Program-made: the position numbers and the translations under genes
Part shown: positions 55,657 to 62,987 of the stretch, piece by piece
How the letters are laid out: every line of letters begins with the position of its first letter
Numbering within the stretch: the stretch's first letter is position 1
Notes under the pieces: model-generated
Database searches by the model: none
What the model was told of the DNA's origin: nothing
The model's input: only the letters and a program-made list of their open reading frames with translations
NCBI RefSeq assembly: GCF_001244545.1
Contig: NZ_LN852696.1
Location: forward strand, 124,001-188,000
Direction of reading: 5' to 3'
DNA from: Candidatus Stoquefichus sp. SB1
GTDB taxonomy: Bacteria; Bacillota_I; Bacilli_A; Erysipelotrichales; Coprobacillaceae
Length of the DNA: 64,000 bases

Positions 55657-55727
55657 ACAAAAAAAGATAGAAATTTATAAAAAAGACACATAACCATGCT
55701 ATAATAGAAACCAAGGAGTGATAATGA

Positions 55728-55973
55728 ATGGAACATGTAACAGAGATAGATAAAAAGAAATATATAGATGATTCAAAAGAAATCGTGAGAACAACAATTG
55801 CTTTAGAAAATATTGTTTTAACGGATCATGAATTAACCATTTTAACAGAAGAAATTATGGATACATCATTAATGATGGGAGGAGATTATTCAACAGAAAA
55901 TATTAGAAATATTGCTGTTCAATATGTCAGAAGTAATTTCTTGCCTCGTTTTAAAGCAGTGCATAAAGAATAG
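55728..55973 (+). CDS. Short conserved-looking protein, first of three-gene cluster
   Basis: An 81-residue soluble helical protein, not recognised, rich in Glu, Asp and Ile (ALENIVLTDHELTILTEEIM). No signal or membrane helix. It starts behind AAGGAG (spacing 9) with an extended -10 TGCTATAAT at 55697-55705, and is followed after 11 bases by a 405-residue unknown protein, so it belongs to an operon with 55985 and 57199. Its length and helical nature suggest a small adaptor, but no function is claimed. Confidence 0.65.
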   Translation: MEHVTEIDKKKYIDDSKEIVRTTIALENIVLTDHELTILTEEIMDTSLMMGGDYSTENIRNIAVQYVRSNFLPRFKAVHKE

Positions 55974-55984
55974 GAGGATGATAT

Positions 55985-57202
55985 ATGGTATATGATATCA
56001 GTGTTATGAAAGAATTTATTGCGACACATCATTCACAATATATAGGAAAATATCGTTATCATAGTGGTTATCGTACTGAAGAATCTGGATATAAAGCACA
56101 TTATTATATGTTAGATCAAAATTTTAGACAAATTGATATTTATGTAGATATTTTTTGTAAAGATCAAATCACATATACTTTTTCAGAAGATTTACATGAA
56201 CAAGAAAAAATATATATTATTAAAGATATTTTACAGCGTATTATTGATAAATCTCAATATAAGAGTACATTACATTATTCTTTATATGATAATTTTATTA
56301 AGACAATATCTAATGAACAATATGTTTTAGAACCGATAGATTTTTATAGTATATTAAATTATATGAAATATCATCAGGGTATTAATCAAAAAACAATGGA
56401 TACTTATTATAAAATATTTATTCCTTGTTTAAAAACGCATTTAAAGAATAAGAATTATGAAAGTTTTATGGATTCAGTGAATATATTATTGGATAATATT
56501 CTTTATCAATATGAATGGGATGGTACAAATTCAAAATATTTAGATACTGAATATCAATTTCATTTATATTATATTCGAGAAATTGTTCGTATTGTTTATG
56601 AGAATCTTGATAAATTTTATAAAAATGTCCCTGATCAATTGTTTGAAGCTATTCATATTCTTTGTCTAAATACAAGATTATCATTTGCAATTATGACAGA
56701 TTTTGGTTCAATGCTACTATCACAATATCGTGTAACAAATGCAATGATTAATCATCTGAAAAATGAATTGGTACTTAATGATAAAGATGAGGAAAGAGAA
56801 AATGTTAATCTTGTTTTTTCTTATATTTATTATATTTTTCATAATGATTTTGATCAATATTATGCAGTTATTTTAAAGGTCTTACGTGGGGTAATTAATA
56901 ATATGCTGACGTTTGCTAATCATGATTTAGATTTGGCTTTAGGAAATTCTTTAGTTAAATCTGAAGGTTATCAAGTTTTATTAGATTTGTTCCATGAAGA
57001 TTATAATACTTTTGTTTTTACTTGTTTTCCAATAGATACTTTCCCGCTTGAAATGAAACCAAAGGTACGAGATGAATTAGTAACAGCAATTCAATTCTTT
57101 GCAGCGAGAATGGAAAGTGATAATTATCGTTTGAGTTCTTTTGAACAAGTCATGAATATTAATAGATTATTAATGGATAATTTTAAGGAGTGGTATAAAT
57201 GA
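55985..57202 (+). CDS. Unknown protein, second of three-gene cluster
   Basis: A 405-residue soluble protein, unusually rich in Tyr, Ile, His and Asn, not matching any family I recognise. No signal peptide or clear membrane helix. The N-terminal part (about 1-95) has a beta-rich look (YIGKYRYHSGYRTEESGYKA then HYYMLDQNFRQIDIYVDI); the rest is mostly helical with repeated ILDNI/YYIREIVRIVYENL-like stretches, possibly alpha-helical repeats. It overlaps the following hydrolase-like gene by four bases (ATGA), showing translational coupling. AGGAGG precedes the ATG. Confidence 0.65.
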   Translation: MVYDISVMKEFIATHHSQYIGKYRYHSGYRTEESGYKAHYYMLDQNFRQIDIYVDIFCKDQITYTFSEDLHEQEKIYIIKDILQRIIDKSQYKSTLHYSLYDNFIKTISNEQYVLEPIDFYSILNYMKYHQGINQKTMDTYYKIFIPCLKTHLKNKNYESFMDSVNILLDNILYQYEWDGTNSKYLDTEYQFHLYYIREIVRIVYENLDKFYKNVPDQLFEAIHILCLNTRLSFAIMTDFGSMLLSQYRVTNAMINHLKNELVLNDKDEERENVNLVFSYIYYIFHNDFDQYYAVILKVLRGVINNMLTFANHDLDLALGNSLVKSEGYQVLLDLFHEDYNTFVFTCFPIDTFPLEMKPKVRDELVTAIQFFAARMESDNYRLSSFEQVMNINRLLMDNFKEWYK

Positions 57203-58098
57203 AAAAGAAAATAGCCATTGGTGGAGCAGTTGCTTCAACATTAACAGCTTCAACATTAACTGCAGGAGTTGCAGTTGCTAATCAATTTGCAAAAAAAATG
57301 TTATATCGTGAACATTTAAGTAAAGAAGATCAGGGTGACTGGTATGAAAAACTAGGAGCTCAAAAAGTGAAAATCAAGAATCATAAGGGTTTGTTTTTAC
57401 AGGCTTATTTAATTGAAAAACCTCAAGCAACACATACGATTATTTGCTTACATGCTTTACTTGAATCAGCATATTCTTTGCAAAGTACAGTTCAATATTT
57501 AGAAAGTATTTTTGAAAATGAAAATATTTTAATGATTGATGCAAATGCTCATGGATTAAGTGATGGATATATTAGAGGTTTTGGATATCGTGATGTTTTT
57601 GATTTGATGTATTTTAATACTTATGTATTGCAAAAGTATGGTGAAAATCATCATATCATTATGTATGGAAAAGGAATGGGAGCCAATACAATTTTAAATA
57701 CATCTGGACTAGGTAAACTAAAAAATGTTGATTTGATTATCAGTGAAGGAGCCTATGATAATGTTTATAATTATTTGGCTGCACGTTGTCAAAAAGATAT
57801 GAAAATAGCAAAATTACTTTGTGGTCCGATGATTAGAAAGGTTATTAAAAATGAATTAAAAACTGATATTAAAAAAATGGATACTGTTCAATTGGTGAAG
57901 AAGAATATAATTCCAACTGTTTATATTCATTCTAAAAATGATCCAGATGTTCCTTTCTCAATGGTTTTCCCATTATATAATCATGATTCATCAAATAAAC
58001 TGTTATTTCCAATTAAAGAAGAACATTTATATGATTTAAAAGATAAAGATGATTCTTATTCATTATCTCTGATTGAGTTTATGAATGAAAATATATAA
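57199..58098 (+). CDS. Alpha/beta-hydrolase fold protein lacking the catalytic serine
   Basis: A 299-residue protein with an N-terminal hydrophobic Ala/Thr-rich segment (about 5-28, signal anchor). The rest has the alpha/beta-hydrolase plan of the YqkD/YkrP branch: THTIICLHALLE, NILMIDANAHGLSDGYIRGFGYRDVFDL, then the nucleophile elbow MYGKGMGANT. In relatives that elbow is G-x-S-M-G; here residues 157-161 are GKGMG, with Gly159 in place of Ser. Asp248 (HSKNDPDVPF) and His276 (KEEHLYDL) are still near their usual places. So it is probably a non-catalytic pseudo-enzyme or has a different chemistry. It is the third gene of the cluster. Confidence 0.82.
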   Translation: MKKKIAIGGAVASTLTASTLTAGVAVANQFAKKMLYREHLSKEDQGDWYEKLGAQKVKIKNHKGLFLQAYLIEKPQATHTIICLHALLESAYSLQSTVQYLESIFENENILMIDANAHGLSDGYIRGFGYRDVFDLMYFNTYVLQKYGENHHIIMYGKGMGANTILNTSGLGKLKNVDLIISEGAYDNVYNYLAARCQKDMKIAKLLCGPMIRKVIKNELKTDIKKMDTVQLVKKNIIPTVYIHSKNDPDVPFSMVFPLYNHDSSNKLLFPIKEEHLYDLKDKDDSYSLSLIEFMNENI

Positions 58099-58115: not shown

Positions 58116-59564
58116 ATGTATTTTAAAGAAACAAAAGGATTCCCTAAAGATTTTTTATGGGGAAGAGCATCTGCTGCTTATCAAGTTGAAGGTGGCTGGG
58201 ATGCTGATGGTAAAGGTGTAACTAACTGGGATAAGTTTGTTAGAATTCCTGGGAAAACATTTAAAGAAACAACAGGGGATAAAGCAGTTGATCATTATCA
58301 TCGTTATAAAGAAGATGTGAAATTAATGGCAGACATGGGTCTGAAAACTTATCGTTTTTCAATTGCTTGGGCAAGAATTTATCCAAATGGTAATGGAGAA
58401 ATTAATGAAGCGGGGTTACAGTTCTACGATAATTTAATTAATGAATTATTAAAGTATGGAATTGAACCAATGGTGACAGTATATCACTGGGATATGCCAC
58501 AAGCATTAGAAGAACAATATCACGGTTGGGAAGACCGTCGTATTGTTGATGATTATGTGAACTATGCGACAACATTATTTAAAAGATATGGTGATCGTGT
58601 CAAATACTGGATTACAATGAACGAACAAAATATTTTTACATCATTTGGCTGGTTAAAAGGAATGCATCCGCCAGGAAAAGAAAATGATATGAAAACATTC
58701 TATCAAGTTAATCATCATGCCAATATGGCACATGCTGGCGCTGTTCTGGCTTTAAAAGAACTTTATCCTGATGCAAAAGTGGGAGCAAGTTTTGCTTATA
58801 GTCCATGTTATGCATTTGATAGAAAACCAGAAAATGCTATGGCAAAAGCAGATTATGATGATTTACAAAATTATTGGTGGATGGATATTTATGCTTATGG
58901 ACGTTATCCAAAGAGTGCCTGGGCATATTTAGAATCTATGGGTGTAACTCCTGATATTCAAGAAGGAGATATGGAGATATTACGTAAAGCAGCATCATTG
59001 GTTAATTTCATGGGTGTCAATTATTATCAGACTTGTGTAGCTGAATATAATCCAATTGATGGTGTAGGTATGAGTAATGCAATGAATACAACTGGAAAGA
59101 AAGGAACTGCTCAAGTTCAAGGTATACCTGGATTATATAAAAATCCAGCAAATGATTTCTTGCCAACAACAGATTGGGATTGGACTATTGATCCAATGGG
59201 ACTTAGAATGTGCTGTCGTGATATTACATCACGTTATGCTTTACCTATTGTTATTTCTGAAAATGGATTAGGTGCATTTGATAAAGTGGAAGATGGACAA
59301 GTTCATGATCCTTATCGTATTGCTTATTTAAAAGCCCACATTGAAGAATTAAAGAAAGCTTGTGATGATGGATGTGAAGTTTTAGCATATTGTACTTGGT
59401 CATATACTGATTTATTAAGTTGGTTAAATGGTTATCAAAAGAGATATGGATTTGTTTATGTTGATAGAGAAGAAGATGAAAACTCAGGAACATTAAACAG
59501 AATTCCTAAAGATTCATATTATTGGTATCAAAAAGTCATTGCCAGCAATGGTGAGGATTTATAA
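58116..59564 (+). CDS. GH1 (6-phospho-)beta-glucosidase 1
   Basis: A 482-residue family GH1 glycosidase. FLWGRASAAYQVEGGWDADGKG near the start, acid/base Glu170 in WITMNEQN, nucleophile Glu382 in VISENGLG. Near the end SWLNGYQKRYGFVYVD holds the Ser, Lys and Tyr usual in phospho-beta-glucosidases, so the substrate may be phosphorylated by a PTS. No signal peptide. It has its own GGAGG site and starts 17 bases after the pseudo-hydrolase gene, which might be cotranscribed with it. A terminator follows. Confidence 0.92.
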   Translation: MYFKETKGFPKDFLWGRASAAYQVEGGWDADGKGVTNWDKFVRIPGKTFKETTGDKAVDHYHRYKEDVKLMADMGLKTYRFSIAWARIYPNGNGEINEAGLQFYDNLINELLKYGIEPMVTVYHWDMPQALEEQYHGWEDRRIVDDYVNYATTLFKRYGDRVKYWITMNEQNIFTSFGWLKGMHPPGKENDMKTFYQVNHHANMAHAGAVLALKELYPDAKVGASFAYSPCYAFDRKPENAMAKADYDDLQNYWWMDIYAYGRYPKSAWAYLESMGVTPDIQEGDMEILRKAASLVNFMGVNYYQTCVAEYNPIDGVGMSNAMNTTGKKGTAQVQGIPGLYKNPANDFLPTTDWDWTIDPMGLRMCCRDITSRYALPIVISENGLGAFDKVEDGQVHDPYRIAYLKAHIEELKKACDDGCEVLAYCTWSYTDLLSWLNGYQKRYGFVYVDREEDENSGTLNRIPKDSYYWYQKVIASNGEDL

Positions 59565-59698: not shown

Positions 59699-60547
59699 AT
59701 GAATCAACAATTAGAGGAAATAAAGAAATTTAAAGCGAGATTTGATAATGAAGAAAAAGAGATACTTGTTTTAACAGAAAGTGGAATGTCAGCGAGTAAG
59801 AGTGGCAATGAGCAGTATTGGACAGTCTCTATAACAGCATTAGCATATATTGATATGAAAAGTGGAGAATTAGTTGAAGGAAAGAGACGTGTAGAATGGT
59901 TGGCAGATGATAAAGAACGTCGAAGTGAAAAAAAGATTTATGGACTTGAAGGTCAAAAAATATACCAACTAATCGTTAAAGAATCTTTACCTTTTGAAAA
60001 TGAATATACACATGATGTTTTTGCAAAAGGATATTGGCTTATGTTAGTTGATGTAGCAAAAAGAAATTGCCAAAATATACAACTTGAAAATATTTTAAAA
60101 GAATACCAAAAAGAAGTTTTTATTCAACCTGAAGGATGTCAAAAACTTATTCTTGATAAATCATTAAATTTATTTAGTGGTGAGGGAATATGGAATCAAA
60201 AAGAATGTTCTATCCATTTAGATAGTGATGGTGAGGATCTTGAGACTGCCAATGAAGCATTGATAACATTCAATGAATTGATGACTCATTGTGATATATG
60301 GGATCAAAAAGCAAGAGAATATGCTGCTGATGAATTAACCGAATTAGCGAATGATTGGGCGGAAGAAGATGATTCAGAGATAACTCATGAAGATTTTGCA
60401 AGACGTATTTTGATTAGTGAAGTATGTGCATCACCTGAAGGTGACTTTGAATTGTTTTATGAAGATGATGATATGTTTTATGGACATGTCATTATTGTAA
60501 GTGGAAATATTCATGAAGGATTTGATGGAGCTGATATTGCAGGATAA
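59699..60547 (+). CDS. DUF2262-like protein
   Basis: A 282-residue cytoplasmic protein. The C-terminal third (about 195-282) resembles the DUF2262 pattern: AADELTELANDWAEED, ITHEDFARRILISEV, EGDFELFYEDDDMFYGHVI and the final GNIHEGFDGADIAG. The N-terminal part has mixed beta/alpha character, including KIYGLEGQKIYQLIVKESLP. It is acidic. No enzymatic motif or membrane segment was seen. It lies alone with its own promoter just before the RpiR-type regulator and between two GH1 genes; any link to beta-glucosides is unsupported beyond position. Confidence 0.7.
   Translation: MNQQLEEIKKFKARFDNEEKEILVLTESGMSASKSGNEQYWTVSITALAYIDMKSGELVEGKRRVEWLADDKERRSEKKIYGLEGQKIYQLIVKESLPFENEYTHDVFAKGYWLMLVDVAKRNCQNIQLENILKEYQKEVFIQPEGCQKLILDKSLNLFSGEGIWNQKECSIHLDSDGEDLETANEALITFNELMTHCDIWDQKAREYAADELTELANDWAEEDDSEITHEDFARRILISEVCASPEGDFELFYEDDDMFYGHVIIVSGNIHEGFDGADIAG

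Positions 60548-61458: not shown

Positions 61459-62987
<1,529 letters not shown>

Follow-up and report, generated by a model that had tools for sequence, protein, structure and literature searches.

Most of the well-known proteins that have the alpha/beta-hydrolase fold without being catalytic come from animals and plants. Among the animal members, NDRG2/3, the neuroligins and thyroglobulin have non-reactive residues in place of the catalytic triad and are reported to act by protein-protein contacts (PMC7022630). P3, the protein at the centre of this analysis, resembles them in that its triad has been replaced while the fold is preserved and the gene is under purifying selection; it differs from them in being bacterial and in being paired by gene order with a second protein, P2. 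The enzymes with which P3 can be compared are the N-terminally anchored, esterase-like alpha/beta-hydrolases (Hydrolase_4 / Abhydrolase_1), such as Pf2001 of Pyrococcus furiosus (5g59). P3 has the same fold, a similar length and the same architecture with an N-terminal hydrophobic segment; unlike these enzymes, it has no serine nucleophile, mostly no oxyanion-hole HG and no fixed histidine, and the invariant residues D122, Y124, R126 and N163 are found in P3 only. For P2, the nearest described proteins are the HEAT/ARM-like helical repeat proteins, which its model may resemble in the helical stack predicted after residue 98; P2 carries an additional N-terminal alpha/beta domain and has no sequence match. 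No description of the P1, P2 or P3 genes was found in the open-access literature. The P2-P3 pair looks undescribed, and what is seen suggests two conserved partners without enzymatic function, not a gene that was broken in a single strain.

The window is a stretch of 64,000 nucleotides from Candidatus Stoquefichus sp. SB1, in which three ORFs, labelled P1, P2 and P3 in gene order, form the locus (Table 1). A sequence-only reading had described these genes as a cluster transcribed together with overlapping ends. All three ORFs were found with the sizes and positions that it had assigned to them, on the plus strand; the overlap is true at one junction only, since P2 and P3 share 4 nt whereas P1 and P2 are separated by a gap of 11 nt. 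The 5' neighbours of P1 are a HisJ-like PHP phosphatase gene and two genes that we take, from their sequences, to be thrB and thrC.

Table 1. Coordinates of the locus features in the window.
Feature	Position	Strand	Basis or placement
P1, 81-aa small protein	55728-55973	+	ORF call
P2, 405-aa protein, no known family	55985-57202	+	ORF call
P3, 299-aa alpha/beta-hydrolase-fold protein without nucleophile	57199-58098	+	ORF, predicted fold
Degenerate nucleophile elbow G157-K-G159-M-G161 of P3	57667-57681	+	Sequence, orthologue and paralogue alignment
GH1 glycosidase, 482 aa, frequent fourth gene	58116-59564	+	17 nt downstream of P3
Extended -10 promoter element TGCTATAAT	55697-55705	+	31 nt upstream of P1 start

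The distribution of the three genes was determined in 43 genomes of the family, and that of P2 also in 153 other genomes of the same order and a phylum set of 392. The window genome (3.6 Mb) belongs to the same genus as a genome matching Candidatus Stoquefichus massiliensis AP9, and other relatives in the sample match Longibaculum muris and Massilimicrobiota. Stoquefichus is placed in Erysipelotrichaceae in the NCBI taxonomy; the genome families used here follow GTDB, where the family is presumably Coprobacillaceae. By profile search, P2 was present in 42 of the 43 family genomes (completeness is 69% for the one assembly that lacks it) and absent from all 153 other genomes searched in the order, which bears out the earlier suggestion that the system is lineage-specific. 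Two further genomes of the class gave weak matches to P2, which fell within a DNA polymerase gene region and were dismissed as chance; across the 392 phylum genomes, matches outside the family were of this chance kind only. Orthologues of P3 were found in 41 of the 43 family genomes, with whole orthologues scoring 1e-75 or better and other relatives 1e-47 or weaker, and in every one of the 41 P3 lies directly 3' of P2. The two genes overlap or nearly overlap almost everywhere across the relatives, and they stay paired in genera g4, g5, g11 and g13, where they occupy a different locus behind ribosomal and ECF transporter genes. P1 was likewise present in 41 of the 43 genomes, directly upstream of P2 in 22, close by in 2 (g3 and g9) and elsewhere in 17. 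These 17 belong to g4, g5, g11 and g13, and there P1 lies near thrB, tcdA-like and ribosomal protein genes. The expectation of three genes in fixed order thus held for the P2-P3 part, and with P1 included for 22 of the 41 P1-bearing genomes. Because of these distributions, we regard P2-P3 as the unit and P1 as an optional member of the transcript.

Considering this conservation, P2 and P3 look like a lineage-specific core gene pair inherited vertically. The pair is kept near-universally over about 20 genera of gut Erysipelotrichales, and P2 with P3 can serve as a signature marker of the family. It could be argued that both are core genes of the lineage that act apart, their adjacency having been inherited with the thrC, thrB and HisJ-like PHP neighbourhood: the order thrC-thrB-PHP-P1-P2-P3-GH1 is conserved as a whole, P1 is separable, and P2 occurs alone in genus g9. 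We consider this unlikely, given that the pair is intact at its different locus in four genera and that its members are adjacent in 41/41 genomes, nearly always at an overlapping or almost overlapping junction. The case of g9 (G009, L122:529-1710, minus strand) does count against a joint function of P2 and P3; its P2 is 29% identical, a serine-less P3 is missing, and its best P3-like protein is encoded at another locus and has GLSMG.

In two assemblies the frames are interrupted. In G022 (L099:8819-9731, minus strand), a frame break divides P3 into two ORFs, and in G034 the frames of both P2 and P3 are broken, which may be due to sequencing errors.

P1 is characterised by the motif T-x-EIMDT-x5-GGD. 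A role as a Fic antitoxin was considered for the resemblance of TIALEN to [ST]xxxE[GN], and was rejected as the motif is not kept in orthologues. Distant relatives of P1 without P2 were seen in one genus, g46, of the sister family, in G079 (L175:5951-6208, plus strand), G191 and G175. The origin of P1 may predate P2, and we infer from its distribution that it is an accessory protein which, in part of the family, is on the same transcript as P2-P3. An extended -10 element, TGNTATAAT or TGNTATACT, was found 27-33 nt upstream of P1 in 13 of 16 examined relatives with P1 before P2, being absent in g3, g15 and g20. Among relatives whose P1 is at another locus, 6 of 7 have TGGTAAAAT or TGATAGAAT 29-44 nt upstream of P2. 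A general promoter scan gave no clear excess over shuffles. The placement of these elements supports a single predicted transcript that starts at P1 or P2.

Neither P1 nor P2 matched Pfam, PADLOC, PHROGs or Rfam, with no defence or phage link, and NCBIfam returned insignificant models only, so the earlier statement that P2 has no recognisable domains holds, and it extends to P1. P2 also had no match among PDB sequences. Its AlphaFold model was of moderate confidence (pLDDT 71). Residues 1-90 form a small alpha/beta domain made of a helix, four antiparallel strands and a second helix, and residues 98-405 form the helical stack. Confidence was good to about residue 300 and poor beyond, the C-terminal third being mostly below pLDDT 50; this poorly modelled third ranks among the most conserved parts of P2. 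A Foldseek search of the PDB gave no match at E 0.001 or below. The best structural neighbours of P2 were HEAT/ARM-like proteins with VIA-align Z scores of at most 7.7, which is within the chance range for helical stacks. A likeness of the small beta domain to KA1 or polo-box folds was discarded, as these stood low in the match lists and within chance.

The AlphaFold model of P3 was confidently an alpha/beta-hydrolase fold (pLDDT 80, pTM 0.83), and its best Foldseek match was the esterase 5g59 (E 1.3e-15, TM 0.74-0.80). Hydrolase_4 was matched by 18 of 27 P3 members; the P3 of the window scores weakly as an alpha/beta hydrolase in family models. The replacement of GxSMG by GKGMG that had been read from the sequence was confirmed at residues 157-161, onto which the paralogues align GxSxG, so that Gly159 occupies the position of the nucleophilic serine. 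In the model, Gly159 directly follows the strand of residues 152-158, as in a nucleophile elbow. The conservation of this position was assessed in 30 family orthologues, and that of the other residues, together with the tree, in 27 P3 rows. Position 159 is Gly in 20 orthologues, Glu in 9 and Asn in 1, and Ser in none, which argues against a strain-level mutation. The Glu residues make up all nine rows of one clade. By comparison, GxSxG and the catalytic Asp and His are kept in 19 of 19 paralogues and in 8 of 8 best outside matches; a serine-bearing paralogue of the window genome is encoded on contig C5 at 182995-183903. The same reading had held that Asp and His remain. This is right for Asp248, the catalytic acid after the penultimate strand, which is present in 23 of 27 rows and is otherwise Asn or Glu, but not for the histidine: column 276 has H in 14 of 27 and Y or N in the rest, and is uncertain in one clade with a one-residue insertion. 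The oxyanion-hole HG has also eroded, with G at position 86 in 6 of 27 rows and P, A, R or E in the others. Ser182 is kept in 26 of 27, and the residues that have newly become invariant or nearly so in P3 are D122, Y124, R126, N140, N163, G184, A185 and Y278.

These patterns bear on whether P3 could still be an enzyme, catalysing a different reaction in which the lost nucleophile is replaced by Ser182, by an activated water or, in one clade, by Glu159. The uniformity of Glu159 in that clade, the conservation of Asp248 and Ser182, and the constraint on the pocket face would all suit such a protein. However, position 159 varies among Gly, Glu and Asn, the oxyanion-hole HG has been lost and the histidine is not fixed, so that one known chemistry cannot account for the family as a whole, and we judge continued catalysis to be improbable.

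Conservation in P3 is highest in the loops along the C-terminal edge of the sheet, which make up the old active-site face. Mean entropy of this pocket face was 1.02, and that of random sets was 1.38 (permutation p 0.0005); P3-specific invariant residues are located on it. The active paralogues show the same trend, so the fold itself may account for some of the pocket-face conservation. As no other part of the fold is conserved so well, even though the catalytic residues are gone, the reading best supported is that of a binding module. We find the chances about evenly balanced that P3 has a hydrolase fold that serves for binding and not for catalysis, is probably anchored in the membrane, and works with P2 in a housekeeping complex common to the family. 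P3 would then bind and no longer hydrolyse, with the old pocket face and its new invariants Asp122, Tyr124, Arg126 and Asn163 as the putative binding surface, and P2, an alpha/beta domain set on a helical stack, would be its putative partner or scaffold, a role against which the moderate confidence of the P2 model counts. The N-terminal helix would tether P3 to the membrane, and P2 would pass on the binding of a ligand or peptide by the former active-site pocket.

P3 had also been called membrane-anchored. An N-terminal segment is present, and an anchor is plausible, but not secure, as the segment is weakly hydrophobic here and in most orthologues: its maximum 19-residue Kyte-Doolittle mean is 1.36, and the values across orthologues range from 0.85 to 2.08. 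P3 also contains cysteines, so that its domain may face either side of the membrane. With so weak an anchor, and with no export signal seen in P1 or P2, the envelope complex stays a proposal. Of the earlier interpretation as a whole, lineage specificity stands, the binding module is the favoured reading, and the linkage of P1 proved loose. A bolder version of the binding-module reading can be offered tentatively, and we think it rather doubtful: P2-P3 would be a near-universal membrane-associated complex of this one gut bacterial family, in which the P3 pseudoenzyme is a ligand receptor that signals through P2, a helical-repeat protein of a new family. If this is true, the logic of the pair would be comparable to that of eukaryotic receptors derived from hydrolases. 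As a defined gene pair, P2-P3 lends itself to deletion and purification.

Given that a GH1 glycosidase gene often follows P3, P2-P3 might serve it, either by sensing sugar or by tethering GH1 to the membrane or a PTS transporter. In most genera, whichever of the two chromosomal contexts they have, a GH1 orthologue of 70-95% identity lies no more than about 100 nt 3' of P3. This conserved link looked promising at first, yet 15 of the 43 genomes, nearly all of them with P2-P3, have no GH1 orthologue; in others, GH1 is at another locus. In genus g16, the slot after P3 holds two short GH1 remnants, of 343 aa (L111:7941-8972, minus strand) and 304 aa (L100:3281-4195, plus strand), one of which has lost both catalytic Glu residues and the other the acid/base Glu, and P2-P3 are intact there. 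A service to GH1 is accordingly a distinctly improbable purpose of the pair; since P2-P3 remain intact without it, GH1 is better regarded as a fellow traveller or client. The g16 remnants are open frames that overlap or abut P3, and each may represent either another pseudoenzyme or a gene in decay. Further downstream in the window, a DUF7021 + DUF2262 protein is encoded at 59699-60547, between GH1 and an RpiR-type regulator gene, beyond which lies a second GH1 (6-phospho-beta-glucosidase) at 61563-62987.

The descent of P3 was assessed from a tree of the 27 P3 rows and 19 paralogues. P3 formed one clade with a support of 100/100, on a long stem that measures 1.14 changes per column, and its nearest paralogues in the same genomes were 25-33% identical. 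P3 probably descends from a duplicated esterase-like alpha/beta-hydrolase with an N-terminal anchor, whose catalytic paralogues are still encoded by these genomes; the nucleophile and the oxyanion hole were lost in the family ancestor, leaving no fixed histidine. P3 is a bacterial pseudo-hydrolase of clear polarity: it arose once, has active paralogues within the genomes that encode it and is strictly paired with P2. Between relatives, dN/dS was 0.02-0.16 for P1, P2 and P3 (Nei-Gojobori, dS 0.26-1.2). The orthologue survey, the single clade and the low dN/dS lead to the conclusion that the serine loss is old, shared and under selection. The idea of P3 as a hydrolase in decay or mutated in one strain, to which the lost catalytic residues and the frame breaks in G022 and G034 might point, is refuted and practically negligible, as the loss is common to 30 of 30 orthologues at these dN/dS values.
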